64,000 bases of DNA from Iningainema tapete BLCC-T55 (GTDB taxonomy: Bacteria > Cyanobacteriota > Cyanobacteriia > Cyanobacteriales > Nostocaceae). This document shows, piece after piece, positions 3,696 to 12,363 of this stretch (within the stretch, counting starts at the first letter, position 1; each line of letters opens with the position of its first letter). The translations under genes and the position numbers were made by a program. The stretch covers positions 248,001 through 312,000 of the forward strand of contig NZ_JACXAE010000110.1 of the NCBI RefSeq assembly GCF_014698965.1. Direction: 5' to 3'. Under the pieces are notes generated by a model. The model ran no database searches. It saw nothing but the letters and a program-made list of their open reading frames with translations, and had not been told where the DNA came from.

Positions 3696-4154
3696 TCAAT
3701 CAGCGTCGTTCCTTCTTCTCAAAGTATTGACCCATGTCATCACTGAACTGCGTTCAGACTCGTACTTGTCAATGTTTTGACAAACATACAGTAAAAGTTC
3801 GTGGAGTGGTTCATCACAAATATCTTGATAAATATCTGCTGGAAATTGGCTCCCTTGTGGATAGCAAAGCTCCCTATTATGTACAATGCTGTTCATTAGC
3901 TTTGTTAGAGCAATCTGCCGTTTCAGAGAACGCGGTGGGTGATGTTGGGCTTCTTTGGCTAGCTGTTTAAGTTGTTCATCTAATTCTTCTTTTTCTAAGG
4001 ACAGTTGAATGTTACTCTTAGAAGATGCGATCGCTTTGGATAAAACGTATCTTTGTGAAGAGTGTTCTTGCTTTGCAACTTGGAGCAAGTGCGCTTCTAA
4101 TTCGCAAACCAATGCCTCTTGATGTTTGTTGTAAGCTTGATAGTTTTGGTTCAT
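3696..4154 (-). CDS. Sigma-70-like protein, C-terminally truncated
   Basis: The 152-residue product has a coiled N-terminal half. It then has KRQIALTKLMNSI, RELCYPQGSQFPADIYQDI and LLLYVCQNIDKYESERSSV ending in WVNTLRRR, which matches my memory of the N-terminal region of a cyanobacterial sigma-70-like family. Members I recall continue past the WVN..R segment for tens of residues; this one stops there, so it probably lost its C-terminal DNA-binding part. ATG 4154 is preferred over 4178 because an AAGGAGA Shine-Dalgarno sequence lies 9-10 bases before it. It is divergent from the TIR-methyltransferase gene, across a repeat-bearing intergenic region. It may be non-functional or act only by binding polymerase. 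Confidence 0.55.
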   Translation of the reverse strand: MNQNYQAYNKHQEALVCELEAHLLQVAKQEHSSQRYVLSKAIASSKSNIQLSLEKEELDEQLKQLAKEAQHHPPRSLKRQIALTKLMNSIVHNRELCYPQGSQFPADIYQDICDEPLHELLLYVCQNIDKYESERSSVMTWVNTLRRRNDAD

Positions 4155-4277
4155 AGTTCTAATTCTCCTTCTCATCATTTAGATGCGAGCCAGATAGTTC
4201 AGATCCTGTTATATTGTTGAGAATAGCTAAGTCAATTAGTAGGTCACCAGAGCGAATTAATGCAGTTAAATGCTACT

Positions 4278-4334
4278 GTTAAAAACAGTTATATACACCA
4301 TTACCACAGTTAAAAACAGTTATATGCACCATTA
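4278..4334. repeat. Two direct repeats, 31-bp period, in a divergent promoter region
   Basis: Copies of about 26 bp at 4278-4303 and 4309-4334 share GTTAAAAACAGTTATAT(A/G)CACC. The first copy also forms the palindrome ACTGTT-AAA-AACAGT. They lie between two divergent genes, one with an N-terminal HTH, so a tandem operator is plausible but unproven. Confidence 0.6.
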
Positions 4335-4481: not shown

Positions 4482-6347
4482 ATGGATGCATCGCGAAGAC
4501 CAAGGGATAAACAGCCAAGGCGACGTGGCTATCTAGCAAGCTGGGACGGAGTTAGAAAACTTGAAGAAAAAAAATTTTCTAAGAACTACTCTTATGAGAC
4601 TATAGCAAAAGAAGCAGGTTTAGCTTCTGACGATCAGGTGAAGCGGCTGTTTCACCCGCAGTGGGGGCGTAGAGTGCAATTAGAGACGATTGAAAAGATT
4701 GCTAGAGTCTTAGATTTAACCCCAACTGATATCATTAATCGAAACGAGTGGAGTCCACTAGATAAGGAACCGAATGTAGATAAAGCTAAGATTTTACTTA
4801 GCGATCACAGCCAAGACACGTCTTTTGCTCAACAGTTACGACGAGCTTTGGAAGCGGCTGAACTGGCAGTGTTCATAACTGAGGCACAATTCAGTGACGA
4901 AGAACTAGATGGGTATGATTGCTTCCTGCTGCTGGTGTCTAGTCACTCGGCAGACATCAGTAACATCGTTATGGAAGAAATAGGACGGGTTCGGCAGTTG
5001 CGTGATGCTCCACCTGACGGGAAGCCAGTGATTATGCTAATCCACGTCGGTTCTCTAATGTCCTTACCACTCAACCATGCTTTACACAAGGAGCTTCAAG
5101 GCATTCCGCAGCGGGAGTGGCCGCAGACCGATATCTCAACTCTTGTACAAGAAGTACTAGAATTGCTGGAAGCGGGACCACCAGTGCTAATAATAAATTC
5201 AGATGACTGGGGACAATTTTTACAGAATGTATCCAGCCTTAATCTTTCCAGAAACTGGTTGCTTACCTATATAGGTGAAGACCAACTGCTAAAACTGGGC
5301 GCTTTAGTGAATGATTTGATCAACAAAGGGGATCGTCGAATTCAATCTGGATACTCCTACTGGGGTGTAGGCCCAGTTCAAATGTGGGATAGGGCTTGTA
5401 ATGACCCAACTTACCATATGCGTAAAAATATTTCCGAGTTTCCTCACTATGCTAAACAGCTCGCTCACCTTGTTGATAAGGAGCGTTACAACTTCGTTAG
5501 TCTCGGTGTAGGTGAGGGTAGGAAAGACAGGAGTATCATTTCAGATTTCTTTAATAGAAATCACAGTGCCAAGCCCCGAGAAGATTTTCTATATATACCT
5601 GTTGACATGAGTCTTGACATGTTGAGAATAGCTGTTGAAAAAATTCAAGAAACAAACCCATTACCCCTGCACCGTTGTGTTGCAATTCAAAAAGATATTG
5701 AATCCCTTAAGGGTATGCAAGAAATTGCTTACATTGCCCAAAGTCTTGGAGCACAAAAGCCAATACTTTATGGGTTTATTGGCAATACAATTGCCAACGT
5801 TGAGAGTCCGAAGCAAGTTCTTAACAACATTGTTAACGCAATGAGATCTGACGATCTGCTGCTTTTCGAGGCTCAAATAATTAACACTTCTGCACTAGAG
5901 TCCCAAGAACTGCTTCAGGAAACTATGGAAAGTGTTAGAAGAGAGTACCTAAGTGATTCCTTTCGTCGTTTTGCAGTAAGTGCGCTTCTACAAAACACAG
6001 ATCTGACTATAGATCCTACTGAGAAGGATAATTCCTACATAGTTGATGTATATTTGCAGCAGTGGAAGTATGGGCAGGTGCTACATATTGATTGTTTTTT
6101 TGAAAATAACACTGACAGGTCGCTCTACATGACGCTAGTGAATGAGCAAACCGTAAAATTAAATGAAAAAGAACGAATCCGTCTTTATCGTTCAAGAAAG
6201 TTTACTCAACCCTCCTTGCAAAAATTCGTCCAAGCCAACGACCTTAGTATACTTGGGGAAAAGCACTATTTGAGTGAAAAAGCCACTGGGTTCATGGTAA
6301 TGATGCTTAAACGGCAAAATGGAGGCGAAACCAGCGGAAGTTTTTAG
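4482..6347 (+). CDS. HTH-TIR-EgtD-like methyltransferase fusion
   Basis: The 621-residue protein has three parts. Residues 20-90 are basic and HTH-like (YETIAKEAG, VKRLFHPQWGRRV, TIEKIARVLDL). Residues 100-230 read as a TIR-type domain: AKILLSDHSQDTSFAQQLRRAL, then DGYDCFLLLVSSHS and NIVMEEIGRV, whose glutamates (E165/E166) sit where TIR NADases carry the catalytic Glu. Residues 258-610 resemble the EgtD/Methyltransf_33 fold that trimethylates histidine with SAM: SLGVGEGRKDR (340-350, SAM loop), PVDMSLDML, GFIGNTIANV (431-440), and IRLYRSRKFT near 566, where EgtD has the histidine-contacting Glu-x-Ser; here Ser is kept and Glu appears replaced by Tyr. The gene stands alone among TA remnants. 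Activity is inferred: a TIR NADase or signalling domain tied to a SAM-binding sensor or methyltransferase. I do not recall this architecture. Confidence 0.75.
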   Translation: MDASRRPRDKQPRRRGYLASWDGVRKLEEKKFSKNYSYETIAKEAGLASDDQVKRLFHPQWGRRVQLETIEKIARVLDLTPTDIINRNEWSPLDKEPNVDKAKILLSDHSQDTSFAQQLRRALEAAELAVFITEAQFSDEELDGYDCFLLLVSSHSADISNIVMEEIGRVRQLRDAPPDGKPVIMLIHVGSLMSLPLNHALHKELQGIPQREWPQTDISTLVQEVLELLEAGPPVLIINSDDWGQFLQNVSSLNLSRNWLLTYIGEDQLLKLGALVNDLINKGDRRIQSGYSYWGVGPVQMWDRACNDPTYHMRKNISEFPHYAKQLAHLVDKERYNFVSLGVGEGRKDRSIISDFFNRNHSAKPREDFLYIPVDMSLDMLRIAVEKIQETNPLPLHRCVAIQKDIESLKGMQEIAYIAQSLGAQKPILYGFIGNTIANVESPKQVLNNIVNAMRSDDLLLFEAQIINTSALESQELLQETMESVRREYLSDSFRRFAVSALLQNTDLTIDPTEKDNSYIVDVYLQQWKYGQVLHIDCFFENNTDRSLYMTLVNEQTVKLNEKERIRLYRSRKFTQPSLQKFVQANDLSILGEKHYLSEKATGFMVMMLKRQNGGETSGSF

Positions 6348-6624
6348 ATAAGATTGATCTCACATTGAGTAGAACATATTTAAAAAAACTCAACTACGAA
6401 GCTCTAAAATTTCTTTGAATTGCACTGGGGTAATAATTGGGATACCCCTAAACGGACTGAGAACGAGCAAATCGTTGTCGCCTGTCACTAGATAATCAGC
6501 ACTACCACCTAAAGCGACTTCTAAAAACTTATTATCTTTAGGATCTCTACAAATTGAGATATCTTCTATTACCTCAACCCAATTAGCCAAAAGAGCAAGT
6601 TCTTGAGGGAAAGTAGTTAATTTT

Positions 6625-6664
6625 CTAGAGCGTCGGTCAAGTAATCAAGATTGACAAAAAAGAT
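6625..6664. repeat. Left target duplication and terminal inverted repeat of the IS
   Basis: CTAG at 6625-6628 is followed by AGCGTCGGTCAAGTAATC and then ATTGACAAAAAAGA, both found inverted at the right end. Confidence 0.9.
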
Positions 6665-8401
6665 GTAATATGTACATGTATTCACCCAAATCAGTTGGGC
6701 ATCCTAATCTTGGTATAATTTATGCGTCCGAACGTATGGCATCCTCTGATCGAATTATCCCAGGCAGAACAAGCAATCATCTCTCGGATCAAGAGAGCCA
6801 AACTATTTATATTTCTACGCCAAAATCGTCACCACCTATTTGATCAGGAATTTCAAGCAGAACTTGCCACTATGTTCAAAGACAGTACGGTAGGTCATTG
6901 CCCAGTTCCCCCAGCACAGCTGGCACTGGCATTAATTTTACAGGCATACACTGGGGTTAGTGATGATGAAGTGATCGAGGCATTGGTGATGGATAGACGT
7001 TGGCAGTTGGTATTGGACTGCCACGATTGCCAGAAACCACCATTCAGTAAAGGTACTTTGGTAAATTTTCGACAAGGGATGATCGATTTTGGCGTTGACA
7101 ATCATGTTAATTGAAAGGACTGTAGAAATAGCCAAAAACAAGGGTGGGTTTGCTTCTAGTAATTTGAGAGCCGCCTTGGACTCTTCTCCATTGTGGGGGG
7201 CGGCGAAAGTAGAAGATACTTATAATTTACTGGGTCATGCTCTGCGTAAAGCCGTGAATTTAATCGCAACCGAAAAGGGACAATCCGCTCTTGAGGTAGC
7301 GAAACAGACACAAGTAGATGATGTAGTGACCGAAACTTCACTTCTTCGCAGCTTTAGACTTAAACTGGGATGATCCAACTGAGCGCTCATATGCCTTAGA
7401 ACTAATTCTCAATGCCCTAGATAAAATAGAATTTCTTGTGGAAAAAAATATTGAGGATGACCACCACCAGCCAACACCTGCGTGGCGAAGCGCTGCTAGT
7501 GGCACGGCAGATTCAAAACCAAGATGTAACTATTGATTCTCAAGGTCAACCACAACTGAGGAAAGGTGTAGCTAAAGATCGTCGCATTTCGATTGAAGAT
7601 CCAGATATGCGTCATGGACGTAGCGCGGTACTAACGTTTTGATGGCGAAAAACGTCATGTACTGCGGGATTTGGATCTTGGAGTAGTGCGCTGCGTTGGT
7701 TTGACGAATGAAGACCGTTCCAGAAGCTCAAGTTACCTTGGCAATGGATGCAGATTTGAAAAATCAGCTCGTGAACATGGTAGAGTTGCATATTGATCGA
7801 GCCTACCTGACGAGTGATTGGGTGAAACAACGTTCCCAAGATTTAGCTATTTTCTGTAAAGCTTGGCCTGTTCGTAATGGCGCTCGTTACACTAAACAGG
7901 ACTTTGTACTCGACTGGGAACAAGGTCTGATTCACTGTCCCAATCATGTGAGTATTCATGCGTGAGTCGGGGAAAACTGTTCACTTTCCCACCTCTGAGT
8001 GTCGTGTTTGTCCTGTACGTGAACGTTGTACTACAAGTGATCGAGGGCGCAGTGTCTCAATTCATCCGGATGAAGCTTTTATGCAGGTTGTACGTAGTCG
8101 TCAGGAGACTGAATCACCGAAGAGCTAAACTCCGAGAACGTTCCCAAGTAGAGCATACCTTGGCTCATATCGGTCAATGGCAAGGCGACCGTGCCCGTAC
8201 TTGCGGTAGCGCAAGAACTTATTTGACCTACGTCGTGTAGCAGTTGTTCATAATCTTCATGTAATTGCACGGATGCCAGATGTTGCTGACCATCTCCAAA
8301 CCGCTTAAATCAATCTGATTAACAATCACCTCCTATAGACCCTAATTTTTCATAATACATTTAAGGTCTTTTTTGTCAATTACGATTACTTGACCGACGC
8401 T
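6629..8401 (+). mobile_element. IS1182-family insertion sequence, 1773 bp, defective
   Basis: The ends are inverted repeats: 18 bp identical, 3 mismatched, then 14 identical. Outside them lies a 4-bp CTAG duplication at 6625-6628 and 8402-8405. Deleting the element with one CTAG restores the PIN toxin frame, which fixes the borders. The transposase inside is related to IS1182-type DDE enzymes but is split over several frames, so the element cannot move on its own. Confidence 0.92.
6722..8308 (+). pseudogene. IS1182-type transposase, multiple frameshifts
   Basis: The first 120 residues (MRPNVWHPLIELSQAEQAII to NFRQGMI) read from ATG 6722. The protein then continues in other frames: VEIAKNKGGFASSNLRAALD and SSPLWGAAKVEDTYNLLGHA from about 7107; QNQDVTIDSQGQPQLRKGVA and DRRISIEDPDMRHGR at about 7510-7620; VELHIDRAYL and FCKAWPVRNGARYTKQDFV at about 7780-7910; then KLRERSQVEHTLAHIGQWQG and RRVAVVHNLHVIARM up to a TAA at 8306-8308. 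Together these cover the expected full-length protein in order, so decay is by small indels rather than a large deletion. Confidence 0.9.
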
Positions 8402-8405
8402 CTAG
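8366..8405. repeat. Right terminal inverted repeat and target duplication of the IS
   Basis: The inverse of the left end reads up to 8401, followed by CTAG at 8402-8405. Beyond it the toxin sequence resumes. Confidence 0.9.
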
Positions 8406-8569
8406 GTGCTATATATCTTTTAAGTCTGTCCCTAGTTAAAACCTCACACAATTCTTGAAATGTCTCTTCTGATAAAAGTGGTGTGACTAAACCATCAAGC
8501 ATCAATAGCAAAATACAATGCGGTGGAGACTGCGGAGAACCAAGTAAGCCACTAACAAAAACGTTAGTG

Positions 8570-8860
8570 TCAAAGACGACTTTCAACTGAAGACTCCTTG
8601 TCAGTAAATTCATCGTCCGATGCCAATATCTGCTCTAGAATTTCATCAGTTAAGCCATTGTCTCTGGCTTCTTTATTAATTTCTTTCACAAGTGTCTTAA
8701 GTTTTTGCGCACGCCATTGCCTATACTCGTTGAATTCGTTTACCGAAATCACAACTGCCGAATCTCTCCCGTATCTGCGAATGACAACAGGAGAGCGCTG
8801 CGCTTTATCAAGTAATTCACCAAAATTATTTTGGGCTTCCCTGGAAGAAAGATATTCCAT
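8570..8860 (-). CDS. Phd/YefM-type antitoxin
   Basis: This 96-residue antitoxin partners the PIN toxin just downstream. The N-terminal half (MEYLSSREAQNNFGELLDKA, SPVVIRRYGRDSAVVIS) is the usual Phd/YefM DNA-binding and dimer domain; the acidic C-terminal half (ILEQILASDDEFTDKE) would bind and neutralise the toxin. The frame is intact although the toxin is interrupted. A perfect palindrome 15 bases upstream of the ATG is the likely autoregulatory operator. A decayed paralogue lies at 1639-1797. Confidence 0.88.
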   Translation of the reverse strand: MEYLSSREAQNNFGELLDKAQRSPVVIRRYGRDSAVVISVNEFNEYRQWRAQKLKTLVKEINKEARDNGLTDEILEQILASDDEFTDKESSVESRL

Positions 8861-8874
8861 CGAACACTCCTAAG

Positions 8875-8897
8875 ATTGTAGCTATGCTAGCTACAAT
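8875..8897 (-). promoter_or_regulatory. Palindromic operator upstream of the antitoxin
   Basis: The perfect 10-bp inverted repeat ATTGTAGCTA-TGC-TAGCTACAAT begins 15 bases before the antitoxin start. Phd/YefM antitoxins repress their own operon through such sites; binding here is inferred from position. Confidence 0.7.
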
Positions 8898-9638
8898 TGT
8901 ATTCGTTTTGAGTTCTTTTGCCAAATCCAGAGTTTGTTGATACTTGGTGTTCAGTAAGCACAATTACCCAAAAGTTCGTCTGGTAGTCTTGATCTTGAAT
9001 GTTATCAGCCAGTCGAAGGACGACTTACAGACAAAATGGTGGCTTAAGCAGTCTTTATTTACTCCTTGATCACACAAACGTAATTTATGCCTCCAACTAA
9101 GGGCTATTTTTTGGCAGACTCTAGAACTTTTGCGATCGCGCCAAAGGTCAATTGGTTCGGTTGATTAATGTTGACCTATCTTGAGGCGTACTTTACATGC
9201 TGTTTGTAGTGAAGGCTACAGTCCATTAATACGATAATTGAGGACTAAAGTCCTCACTACGAGCAATGTGCTTATTTTCTGGGGTAAAAATGATGGTGTT
9301 GATAAAATTTATCATTTATTTACAGCTATTTATCTCTTTTACTGCGCTCTTTCCCGTTACTGCTACTTATTTCTATGCCTTTTGTTACGATGCTTGTTTG
9401 TTCACTATTGACCTTGACTTATTGAAATAGTTAAGGGAAACTAACACTAGACGAAGGTAAACACTTATAAAATCAATAATTTTTGTAAATTTTATGAGAT
9501 ATATATTTTGAGAGATGGAACAGTAGTTAACAAATGGAAAACTTGTAGCTAAGAGAAAATTCTGTTCACTATGGCTACATCCGTAGCTTCTGCATTGGAA
9601 GTAATTATCCAAGCATACTGTTGTGGTTGGCTAAAAGC
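8898..9638. other. Intergenic region with REP-like hairpins, no supported gene
   Basis: I see no credible gene in this 740-base stretch. It contains GGTCAA...TTGACC ends around 9147-9177. A nested hairpin at 9206-9260 has outer arms GTAGTGA/TCACTAC and inner arms GAGGACT/AGTCCTC. The latter resembles a dispersed cyanobacterial palindrome and the element at 19246-19279. Confidence 0.5.
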
Positions 9639-9845
9639 ATGGAAACATTAGAGTTCATAATCTATCCAGATGGTCGGGTACAAGAAAAAGTCACTGGCAT
9701 TGTTGGTGCTTCCTGCGCTGAAGTGACAGCTGCTATTGAGGCACAGCTAGGACACGTACTTAGTCAAGAGCCAACCTCAGAATTCTTCACTACCAAGGTG
9801 CAGCTTAGTGCGGCAAATACTCAATCCGCTTTCAGCGACTGGTAA
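9639..9845 (+). CDS. DUF2997 family protein
   Basis: This small 68-residue protein starts METLEFIIYPDGRVQEKVTG, a strand-rich N-terminus typical of DUF2997. It is first in a three-gene set with the DUF1257 protein and a ferredoxin, an arrangement I recognise from many cyanobacteria. ATG 9639 is chosen over a TTG at 9621 because the family begins at MET.EF.I. Function is unknown; the partnership suggests support of an iron-sulfur or redox step. Confidence 0.82.
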   Translation: METLEFIIYPDGRVQEKVTGIVGASCAEVTAAIEAQLGHVLSQEPTSEFFTTKVQLSAANTQSAFSDW

Positions 9846-9883
9846 ACTTTCAAACCGTTTAGTTTCATCGAATTACAACCACC

Positions 9884-10270
9884 ATGTCACACTTCAGCCA
9901 AATTAAGACCCAAATTCGTAACCTCGAATCTTTACAAGATGCTCTTTCTGACTTGGGTATAGACTGGAAACAAGGTCCACGACAAGTACGTGGTTACCGT
10001 GGTCAAACTCATGATGCCGAAATCACTGTAGAGCAAAACAATGGCTATGATATCGGCTTTAAATGGAATGGAGCCGAGTACGAATTGGTTGCTGACTTGC
10101 AATATTGGCAACAAAATTCTTCAGTGGAAGGGTTTTTACGTCAAGTAACACAGCGCTATGCATACCGCACAGTATTGAAAGAAACTACTCGTGCAGGTTT
10201 TCAAGTCTCAGAACAAAAACAAAATCAAGATGGTTCCATTAGCTTAGTTGTACAACGCTGGAGTGCGTAA
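9884..10270 (+). CDS. DUF1257 protein (Ycf35-like)
   Basis: The 128-residue product starts MSHFSQIKTQIRNLESLQDA, the conserved opening of DUF1257, a family that includes chloroplast Ycf35. It follows DUF2997 by 38 bases and its TAA overlaps the ATG of the next gene by one base (10270), so the two are translationally coupled. No catalytic motif is visible. The biochemical role is not known to me. Confidence 0.9.
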   Translation: MSHFSQIKTQIRNLESLQDALSDLGIDWKQGPRQVRGYRGQTHDAEITVEQNNGYDIGFKWNGAEYELVADLQYWQQNSSVEGFLRQVTQRYAYRTVLKETTRAGFQVSEQKQNQDGSISLVVQRWSA

Positions 10271-10719
10271 TGTCTGATTTTTTGCCGTCGCCGGAAGAAG
10301 CGGAACGTTCCGGCTTAGAGCCAGAATTGGGCGGCTTTTTACGAGATGCGCCCATGCGATCTGGTTTAGAGCCGGAATTGGGCGGAGTGCTGCGACAAAA
10401 GGGTGTTTATGTAGATGAAATTACCTGTATCGGCTGCAAACACTGCGCTCATGTTGCTCGTAATACATTTTATATTGAACCAGATTACGGGCGATCGCGT
10501 GTAATGAGTCAAGAGGGAGACGCAGAGGAAGTAATTCAAGAAGCGATCGACACTTGCCCCGTCGATTGCATTCACTGGGTAGATTACACTGAACTGAAAA
10601 AGTTAGAAGAAGAGCGTAAATACCAGGTAATTCCTGTAGTTGGATACCCTTTAGATCAAGCAGTTGTCTCTACCCAAAAGCGACGCAAAAAACAAAAACT
10701 CAAAAAGTCGCGCTATTAA
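10270..10719 (+). CDS. 4Fe-4S ferredoxin of the DUF1257 operon
   Basis: This 149-residue electron carrier has a single [4Fe-4S] site: CIGCKHC (C-x2-C-x2-C) near residue 57 and TCPVDC near residue 98. The N-terminus carries two copies of SGLEPELGG separated by 14 residues, and the C-terminus is lysine-rich (RRKKQKLKK). It is co-transcribed with the two preceding genes. The twin SGLEPELGG motif is, from memory, normal for this cyanobacterial ferredoxin. Confidence 0.92.
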   Translation: MSDFLPSPEEAERSGLEPELGGFLRDAPMRSGLEPELGGVLRQKGVYVDEITCIGCKHCAHVARNTFYIEPDYGRSRVMSQEGDAEEVIQEAIDTCPVDCIHWVDYTELKKLEEERKYQVIPVVGYPLDQAVVSTQKRRKKQKLKKSRY

Positions 10720-10738
10720 AATATAGCAATCAGGAATT

Positions 10739-10775
10739 AGAAGCTCGGTTTATTCAAGAAACCGGGCTTCTTGTT
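10739..10775 (+). terminator. Hairpin after the ferredoxin operon
   Basis: An imperfect stem (AGAAGCTCGGTTT / AAACCGGGCTTCT) about 20 bases past the stop is followed by TTGTTCT. It probably terminates the operon. Confidence 0.6.
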
Positions 10776-10865
10776 CTAGTGTTAAGAGAAATTTGTTATA
10801 ATTGCGAAAAAAATAGTGAATCAGTTATCAGATGAGGAGATTTACCGGGAAAGTTTAAAACTGCT

Positions 10866-11123
10866 TTGAGAGAATTAGGGGTTGAAGCAACTAAGGAAGA
10901 AATGGATTTTTATCGGGAGTTTCAGCCTTGGATACAAAAGAAATATCATGTGTCAACTTCTAATTCTTGGGCGAAGATAATTATGCTTCATTGTGGAAGC
11001 GAACAAGAGGGTTTTAATACTTTCTACAGGTTATTAGATGAATTTCAAAATAGAAATAAAAGTTTAAACGTAAATGAGTTGAGTAAAATAGCTTCTTCGG
11101 AGAACACACAAATTCCAGCTTAA
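10866..11123 (+). CDS. Hypothetical protein, possibly missing its natural start
   Basis: The 85 residues from TTG 10866 include EEMDFYREFQPWIQKKY, SNSWAKIIMLHCGSEQEGF and TFYRLLDEF. I do not know the family. The same frame stays open back to a TGA at 10833 and encodes GDLPGKFKTALRELG. An overlapping frame begins with GTG at about 10814, shortly after a TATAAT box, and encodes MNQLSDEE before stopping. This suggests a single-base loss near 10835 separating the true start from the body. Weak or decayed gene. Confidence 0.5.
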   Translation: MRELGVEATKEEMDFYREFQPWIQKKYHVSTSNSWAKIIMLHCGSEQEGFNTFYRLLDEFQNRNKSLNVNELSKIASSENTQIPA

Positions 11124-11174
11124 TTGTTTTTAACGGGAAATCAGTTACCTAAACTTTGCTCTGTTAAGAATGCT

Positions 11175-11540
11175 CTAGTTCTCAGCATCTGAGGTATTCT
11201 GTAGGTTTTTCTCAATTTCAAGAATCACTGTTTTTAAAGGTGGCAACCCTTCCTGAACTGTTGCCCAAAGCACCTTTACATCAATTCCCCAATATTCATG
11301 TAATAACACATCTCGCATTCCAGCCACGGCTTTCCAAGGAATTTGAGTGTGTTGGCGGCGAATGTCGTCAGGAATCCGCTTAACTGCTTCTCCTATAATC
11401 TCGATTGACTTTACAACAGCCAAAATCTTCTCTCGGTTGACTCGAAAAGTTTCAAAATCAATCCCGTCTGTAAATGCTTCAATATCAGCAATAGTTTCTA
11501 ATATATCTTGGAGAAATTCCGATAGTTGTCGTTTAGTCAT
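11175..11540 (-). CDS. hepT: HepT-like HEPN ribonuclease toxin
   Basis: The 121-residue HEPN-domain protein (formerly DUF86) carries the catalytic motif RDVLLHEY, matching R-x4-H-x-Y near residue 77. In this toxin family R and H cleave RNA, and the tyrosine is AMPylated by the MntA partner to silence it. The start ATG overlaps the mntA stop in an ATGA, so the two are translated together. All key residues are present; this is one of two TA loci in the window that look intact. Confidence 0.92.
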   Translation of the reverse strand: MTKRQLSEFLQDILETIADIEAFTDGIDFETFRVNREKILAVVKSIEIIGEAVKRIPDDIRRQHTQIPWKAVAGMRDVLLHEYWGIDVKVLWATVQEGLPPLKTVILEIEKNLQNTSDAEN

Positions 11541-11830
11541 ACATAAACGATTTCCGATAACACTCGGTTCAGGATTCTTGGCTTCAAACCGTTTTGCGTT
11601 ACTACATCAACCTTCATACCAATTGCACTGCTGAGATAGTCACGTAGCTCTATTAACTTAAACAAAGTCGGTGCTTGGTCATAGTCAATGAGTAGATCAA
11701 CATCACTCTCCTCAGTTTGTTCACCACGAGCGTAAGAACCAAAGATGCCCAATTGAGTGATCCGATAGTGTTCCTCCAACAACGGTTTACTTTGTCTGAG
11801 AATTTGCTTAATTTCTTCTAACGTTTTCAT
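11537..11830 (-). CDS. mntA: MntA-like minimal nucleotidyltransferase antitoxin
   Basis: The 97-residue nucleotidyltransferase has the signature GSYARGEQTEESDVD (GS-x10-DxD) at residues 31-45 and a third acidic residue in MKVDVV near 75, the usual triad. In characterised HepT-MntA pairs it transfers AMP to the toxin tyrosine. ATG 11830 is chosen because the family starts just before the helix preceding the GS motif; the open frame further upstream does not resemble it. Confidence 0.92.
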   Translation of the reverse strand: MKTLEEIKQILRQSKPLLEEHYRITQLGIFGSYARGEQTEESDVDLLIDYDQAPTLFKLIELRDYLSSAIGMKVDVVTQNGLKPRILNRVLSEIVYV

Positions 11831-11889
11831 TTTGAAAAGTTTTACTTCTAACTTGTCAAATATTATATCATCAATAGTTGTTTTCTTCG

Positions 11890-11931
11890 GCTGGTTTTTG
11901 AGAGGCATGCATGGAAGATTGATGACTTGGT
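11890..11931 (+). pseudogene. Tiny Uma2 gene remnant
   Basis: Two short segments (GCTGGTTTTTGAGAGGC and GCATGGAAGATTGATGACTT) occur in the Uma2 gene at 14113-14805 about 115 bases apart, but here they are nearly joined. This marks a deleted copy lying between the MntA and BrnT loci. Confidence 0.6.
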
Positions 11932-12101
11932 AGCCGGAAAAATGAAATTGTGAAGGCTGGGGAGAGTGAGCTTCATCCGGATTTCCCTCCGGTGGCGACT
12001 GGCACAGAAAAGATATGGATAGCACACACGGGCCAAATTTTGGCAGTTGACGATGGATACCTTGCTCATTTTTAATTCTAAAATTAAGATGGTAGGGATA
12101 G

Positions 12102-12363
<262 letters not shown>

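Follow-up and report, generated by a model that had tools for sequence, protein, structure and literature searches.

Why should a protein that begins like a bacterial effector end in a module resembling EgtD, the L-histidine N-alpha-methyltransferase? The question is raised by one gene in the 64,000-nucleotide stretch of the Iningainema tapete BLCC-T55 genome analysed here (the window), where an open reading frame on the + strand at 4482-6347, with an ATG start, encodes 621 amino acids, exactly the coordinates and length given in a sequence-only reading of this DNA. That reading described an HTH joined to a TIR-like domain and a complete EgtD/Methyltransf_33 (MT33) domain. The N-terminal HTH (residues ~21-91, 4542-4754, +) matches HTH_26 in Pfam over residues 35-87 with E 1.9e-4 and 22.0 bits, exactly at the cut-off of 22, and the TIR-derived domain (residues ~100-232, 4779-5177, +) matches TIR_2 over residues 106-189 with E 0.0015 and 19.4 bits, under the cut-off of 28. 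The EgtD-fold methyltransferase-like module (residues 258-613, 5253-6320, +), delimited by Pfam, structural model, fold search and tree, matches MT33 over residues 281-590 with E 7e-17 and 61.9 bits against a cut-off of 23. In control genomes of E. coli and Methanosarcina acetivorans the Methyltransf_33 model passes its cut-off too. Against the NCBIfam EgtD equivalog TIGR03438 the window protein scores 42 bits with a cut-off of 290.9, which marks it as a diverged member of the superfamily and not EgtD itself. The source genome (9.5 Mb, 134 contigs) also encodes an ordinary EgtD-like gene, on contig C27, at 399 bits.

The three parts occur together in other genomes. A scan that looked only for two short peptide patterns, in one genome per species across 84,980 species, yielded 12 loci with related sequences, three of which hold the complete fusion: Komarekiella delphini-convector (L062, 612 aa), a Rhizonema MAG (L063, 611 aa) and the MAG UBA11370 (L064, 613 aa; the identical protein of L080 was counted once). 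Over the whole length they are 89%, 83% and 66% identical to the window protein, and over the MT module 95%, 87% and 78%, respectively. The same join in these three loci, and in the further relatives described below, rules out an assembly artefact as its source. In six more loci (L065-L070) a stand-alone MT33-like gene adjoins a small membrane-protein gene, and in L073 the gene is cut by the contig end. The remaining two loci, L071 and L072, come from Nostoc genomes and appear to be remnants: flanked by the same neighbours on both sides, the stand-alone MT33 gene seems to have lost part of its length; in L071 the MT33 frame runs on into the membrane-protein frame.

Across the six pairs among the four fusions, dN/dS is 0.10-0.35 in the MT module and 0.13-0.48 in the TIR part, and the strongest constraint, 0.04, falls on the SAM-binding half in the comparison between the window protein and L062. 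The HTH gives 0.63-1.05 in three pairs and is undefined in the three that involve L064, whose HTH is unlike the others (28-29% identity). MT33 and TIR are thus under purifying selection and the HTH is fast-evolving or replaced; these values indicate that the gene is maintained and that constraint is greatest in the enzyme-like module. The fusion first proposed from the sequence is therefore real, conserved and under selection.

The two halves of the protein were modelled separately, after a MAFFT composite alignment had placed EgtD starts in the TIR region. The predicted model of residues 258-621 (pLDDT 84, pTM 0.86) superposes on EgtD (PDB 4uy6) with Z 33.1 and an rmsd of 2.2 over 307 residues at 16% identity, so that both the profile search and the structural overlay proposed in the sequence-only reading bear out the EgtD relationship. 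The best match outside EgtD is AzeJ (Z 18.4). In a tree of 35 rows, the 16 rows of the MT33 group (eight fusions, six with an adjoining membrane gene, L086 and L088) split from 10 EgtDs with support of 99/95; L085, L086 and L088 form long branches whose exact position in the tree is unsure. The six fusions with a degenerate TIR form one clade, which points to one fusion event. Another MT33 group (L087, L089, L099 and L106), distinct in the tree from both EgtD and the fusion group, has proteins of ~330 aa with HPSQFP near the start and GMIPNF replacing the Asn loop.

All the motifs listed in the earlier reading are present in the window protein and align with EgtD as it proposed. The SAM loop GVGEGRKDR occupies residues 342-350 (5505-5531, +) and GFIGNTIANV residues 431-440 (5772-5801, +), with N439 at the position of EgtD N166. 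We take EgtD Y39, Y56 and N166 to correspond to Y293, Y311 and N439, a numbering that fits the PDB chain indices. In an alignment of 15 rows of the MT33 group (A8), N439, G344, G346, D349, D375 and D405 are identical throughout, Y293 is kept in all 14 rows that cover it and Y311 in 13 of 14, L085 being the exception. The Glu-x-Ser through which EgtD contacts histidine (E282-x-S284), invariant in all ten cyanobacterial EgtDs aligned, is replaced in the window protein by Y569-R-S571 (6186-6194, +). The tyrosine read at this site therefore holds for the window protein but not as a contact common to the group, in which the 13 alignable rows have Tyr in eight, Leu in five and Glu in none. The column of EgtD Y206 falls on R487, which is variable in the group, so that this site is uncertain; E488-Y489, which follow it directly, are kept in 13 of 13 alignable rows. 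The MT33 group has accordingly retained the SAM-site residues and most of the amino-acid backbone pocket, and has lost the glutamate that reads histidine.

In-depth searches, which covered the cyanobacteria, outline the wider family. A profile of the MT module matched 18 of 388 genomes of the order at E <= 1e-10. Five of these hold a stand-alone MT33 gene, with a membrane-protein gene adjoining in all five, and G491 has a similar pair in which the MT33 gene is broken by an internal stop and the membrane gene is short. Hydropathy gives the membrane partner one clear transmembrane stretch, not two, in six cases of six. Fusions are carried by five genomes: the window's own (G000), G537 (the same protein as L064), G546 and G506, whose proteins of 623 and 655 aa join a different helical head to a TIR-like domain and MT33, and G481, which encodes a CHAT-MT33 fusion of 594 aa. 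G522 encodes a separate TIR-MT33 fusion of 488 aa, and in G569 the MT33 gene lies two genes downstream of a TIR-GUN4 gene. The tree assigns G486 and G392 to another MT33 group, places G615 with G569 and sets G058 near the EgtDs; G083, the last of the 18, was left out of tree placement. Pfam confirms CHAT and MT33 in L082 and finds an intact TIR in L085 (TIR_2 2e-17, MT33 3e-17), with no HTH detected in either protein; TIR_2 falls just above its cut-off in L083 and below it in L084.

The CHAT-MT33 and separate TIR-MT33 proteins are known from one genome each. The MT part of L085, as query, had matches in 23 of 388 genomes of the class, none of them another TIR-MT33 protein of the L085 type. A wider MT profile of the family matched 52 of 386 genomes of the phylum at E <= 1e-8, and among the matches listed the window's own protein was the sole fusion. 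In a control set made of the 30 best EgtD-type matches, the open frames run to 326-394 aa, which leaves little room for such a head; some lower-ranking matches have frames of up to 560 aa.

Carriage by phages was considered and rejected, since no match appeared in 50,697 phage records and, of six stretches of viral contigs that fitted the two peptide patterns, none was confirmed. Plasmids yielded no fusion. Five plasmid records matched the window protein, only within residues 16-232; with the L085 query 14 records matched (TIRs or EgtD-type genes), none with 80% of the query in one place; and with the L086 query four did, three annotated as EgtD and one unannotated.

The relationships of the front end emerged when the full-length protein was used as query against 386 genomes of the phylum. 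At E <= 1e-8, 32 matched: the window's own, three over the MT part only and 28 within residues 10-251 only. We compared the front ends of the MT33 fusions with 27 front-end-type proteins. Similarity to the window HTH is seen in the heads of L007, a NACHT protein (51% over 82 aa, E 2e-21), and of L006, an HTH-TIR-AAA_35 protein (37% over 81 aa, E 4e-12), and 26 of the 27 match the window TIR (E 2e-22 at best). For the CHAT of L082 there are three matches, all of them CHAT-TIR-AAA_35 proteins (45% and E 7e-40 for the best), and for the L083 head likewise three, all of them heads of TIR-AAA_35 proteins (E 1e-10 for the best). Among the same 27 proteins the head of L084 has no match and the HTH of L064 has one weak match (E 0.007). 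The L085 TIR likewise has only one weak match (E 0.004), which points to an origin different from that of the window-type TIR. Pfam confirms AAA_35 in all nine of the proteins scanned for it (L002, L006, L008, L011, L012, L017, L026, L028 and L029) and NACHT in L007, and detects no AAA_35 in the window protein, where MT33 occupies its place. Because the front ends are homologous to the heads of AAA_35 and NACHT proteins, MT33 sits where these cousins carry AAA_35 or NACHT. An effector front end followed by a switch is an established arrangement in such systems, and MT33 may have taken over the switch role of AAA_35/NACHT.

The TIR-derived domain is shorter than those of its relatives. Between strand B and strand C there are 16 residues in the window protein, L062 and L063 and 18 in L064, against 25 in 19 of 21 related TIRs and 31-32 in the other two. 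The missing ~9 residues correspond to the BB loop and the start of helix B, which in the TIR model is reduced to residues 139-142; the BB loop and helix B of a TIR NADase are thus not intact in the window protein. The glutamate pair noted in the sequence-only reading, E165-E166 (4974-4979, +), is present, with E166 at the catalytic-Glu column and E165 replaced by Lys in L062. The catalytic column is Glu in all four aligned fusions and in 17 of 21 related TIRs, the other four having Gln; by eye, L083 and L084 have the glutamate too. The four with Gln are HTH-TIR proteins (L019, L020, L025 and L029, the last with a confirmed AAA_35); their TIRs are probably not NADases because of that substitution.

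That the window domain is TIR by descent is indicated by its sequence relatives: the six best matches to related TIRs have 35-42% identity, with E down to 2e-22, and the TIRs matched pass the Pfam cut-off where scanned. We set structure aside as proof, because the fold search with the TIR model places TIRs (Z ~12-13) level with CheY-like receiver domains and AdiA first (13.6). TIR identity as first proposed stands mainly through homologues; the domain's own TIR_2 score is only 19.4 bits, and its BB-loop/helix-B region is shortened. The NADase activity attached to it fares worse: NAD cleavage by this domain appears doubtful because the BB-loop/helix-B segment is ~9 residues short, and in the fold search the domain is not distinguished from receivers.

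Upstream of the gene lies an iteron-like promoter motif (4263-4334, +) in which CWGTTA steps accompany a 29-nt repeat, present twice (4275-4303 and 4306-4334) in copies that are 93% alike, in agreement with the repeat-bearing divergent promoter first described. The 29-nt repeat was found by a repeat search and missed by Tandem Repeats Finder. The element GTTAAAAACAGTTAT occurs within 300 nt upstream of the window, L062 and L063 genes and is absent upstream of L064, which has the other HTH. There are six CWGTTA steps upstream of the window gene and five upstream of L062 (shuffle mean 0.3, with none of 500 shuffles as high); the excess is significant in these two, and in neither L063, with one copy, nor L064, with none. 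The motif core has no other occurrence in the source genome at up to three mismatches, and no CWGTTA array lies upstream of L006, L007, L029, L019, L083 or L084. Two sigma-70-like promoter sites were found against a shuffle mean of 4.8, both inside the window gene. In these four genomes, two of them close, the motif would fit self-regulation through the HTH.

Upstream of L006 a single CWGTTA copy faces a complementary copy. By eye, a perfect inverted repeat, ATCGATGCAGTTAA...TTAACTGCATCGAT, also precedes the start of this HTH-TIR-AAA_35 gene by ~80-120 nt and has TGCAGTTAA in common with the window promoter.

The gene had been described as solitary in TA-rich surroundings. Solitude holds in part: a divergent 160-aa ORF that looks truncated (3696-4178, -) has a counterpart at the equivalent position in UBA11370, a 220-aa gene to which it is 39% identical over 116 aa and which matches sigma-70 region 4 under the cut-off. 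This neighbour occurs in two of four loci only, the window and UBA11370, which rules out a divergent sigma-like gene as an obligate partner. Downstream, 6390-12235 is a toxin-antitoxin and transposase stretch with a PIN_3 fragment, a DUF772 transposase piece, a Phd/PIN pair and a HepT/nucleotidyltransferase pair, and it marks an accessory region. Among the six intact named stand-alone loci, four (L065-L068) have MT33 between an amidase gene and a CobN/ChlH-like gene, and L069 and L070 have it between other genes, as judged by eye. This steady chromosomal context of the stand-alone members is not defence-like and counts against a defence reading.

Two other neighbourhoods were noted. In G481 the CHAT-MT33 gene adjoins a caspase gene; with the TPR-rich, CHAT and caspase-like genes also seen by eye, they make up a run (L122, 4660-16501) like a dense cell-death cluster. 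In L127 (3809-8927) an operon-like series leads from a TIR-GUN4 gene through one that weakly matches deoxyribosyltransferase and the MT33 gene to what by eye is a PAS-methyltransferase gene.

PADLOC gives no match for the window protein, on which ground we set aside its membership of a known defence system. It was also run on nine related proteins. L083, L084 and both L065 proteins have no match; L082 is called CHAT, L006 SAVED-TIR, and L085 SAVED-TIR, PDC-S66 and ThsB. The TIR-GUN4 neighbour in L127 matches the PD-T4-6, PDC-S60 and ThsB models, and the L122 caspase is called caspase.

We tentatively favour the view, which we hold to be nearly but not quite probable, that these cyanobacterial proteins make up a new conflict-type family, concerned with cell death or defence, whose usual NTPase switch (AAA_35/NACHT) has given way to a diverged EgtD-type module. 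From the architecture, conservation, grouping, residue pattern and selection described above we infer how such a protein could work. The HTH would bind the motif in its own promoter and keep protein levels low. The C-terminal module, judging by its conserved residues, would bind SAM or SAH together with an amino-acid-like ligand other than histidine, and a change in occupancy, caused by a shift in the SAM or amino-acid pool or by an invader's molecule that fits the pocket, would release or assemble the front end. The TIR-derived domain probably provides an interaction or nucleotide-binding output more than a vigorous NADase, because the BB-loop/helix-B segment is lost and the catalytic-position Glu kept. 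In sister members the output would be CHAT, an intact TIR or the membrane protein. Two observations add weight to the sensor or switch idea of the sequence-only reading: MT33 occupies the place of AAA_35 or NACHT in the front-end relatives, and its group has links to CHAT, to another TIR and to a membrane protein. The caspase gene next to CHAT-MT33 and the TIR-GUN4 gene near another member also favour a conflict role; the finding of CHAT-MT33 and of the separate TIR-MT33 in a single genome each counts against it.

In filamentous bacteria, NTPases or nucleotide second messengers normally gate the TIR and CHAT effectors. The presence of MT33 in place of an ATP-driven switch suggests that bacterial cell-death proteins of this type have a novel form of switch. 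A more specific version, that an amino-acid methyltransferase fold was turned into an ATP-free switch, joined to TIR twice, to CHAT and to a membrane partner, and monitors metabolic integrity or infection through SAM or an amino acid, is a possibility we take seriously without considering it probable.

The main rival to a switch is a working N-methyltransferase that acts on an amino acid other than histidine or on a peptide end. The HTH and TIR-derived domain would then be regulatory or scaffold parts and the product a betaine-like metabolite or signal; the kept pocket would fit an active methyltransferase equally well. The full EgtD fold, the SAM site and the equivalents of Y39, Y56 and N166 are all retained, the strongest constraint lies in the SAM-binding half, and the TIR is shortened whereas MT33 is not. 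An engineered EgtD, M252V/E282A, was solved with tryptophan according to the title of its structure entry, so that loss of E282, which the MT33 group has also undergone, is compatible with another amino acid. For plain metabolism it would, however, be odd to find one catalytic module combined with CHAT, with TIRs of two kinds and with a membrane partner; the front ends are those of effector-switch proteins, and no biosynthetic cluster was noticed beside the window gene in the ORF list or the scanned families. We consider a working enzyme somewhat unlikely.

Rather improbable, in our view, is a one-component transcription regulator in which the HTH is the output, MT33 the metabolite sensor and the TIR-derived domain serves dimerisation only, with no cell death. 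Its N-terminal HTH, the degenerate TIR and a promoter motif found in all three genomes with this HTH and missing from the one with the other HTH would suit such a role, but the HTH is near-neutral between close relatives and replaced in UBA11370, and L082 and L085 have none in Pfam. An abortive-infection effector with an active TIR NADase triggered through MT33 would be consistent with E166, kept in all four aligned fusions though the first Glu varies, and with the intact TIR of the sister L085; the shortened BB-loop/helix-B segment and the window's TIR_2 score under the curated cut-off make it very unlikely.

If the favoured switch reading is right, a gate built from a SAM-dependent amino-acid methyltransferase would represent a different principle, tying cell death to SAM and amino-acid pools. 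It would also give a functional context to a branch of Methyltransf_33 outside EgtD that profile searching by itself would label histidine methyltransferase. We found no published description of a TIR/CHAT-MT33 architecture in a search mostly outside the subscription literature, and none joining EgtD/Methyltransf_33 with TIR or conflict proteins in the papers covered, PMC8195603, PMC7159879 and PMC10907252 among them. Neither PMC8195603 nor PMC7159879 mentions EgtD; 'methyltransferase' occurs 0 times in the latter and three times in the former, all on histone enzymes.

Among known systems, the STAND and MoxR-vWA (VMAP, iSTAND) conflict systems (eLife 2021 e70394, PMC8195603; eLife 2020 e52696, PMC7159879) resemble the present family in that effectors of the TIR, caspase, trypsin and GUN4 types are coupled, in filamentous bacteria, to a regulatory module, which in those systems is an NTPase. 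The TIR NADases, Thoeris ThsB among them, have common TIR descent with the window protein, whose TIR is without the BB loop, and no ThsA-type partner gene was seen among the gene families scanned near the window gene. EgtD (PDB 4uy6, 4pio) has the whole fold, the SAM motifs and the Y39, Y56 and N166 positions in common with MT33, whereas the MT33 group has Tyr or Leu for E282, forms a separate group and has members fused to TIR or CHAT. The cyanobacterial TIR, CHAT, trypsin or HTH proteins with AAA_35 (PF14516) have homologous HTH, TIR and CHAT domains and one homologous helical head, in the same order; they end in a C-terminal AAA_35, whereas the window lineage has an EgtD-type module instead and a shortened TIR.
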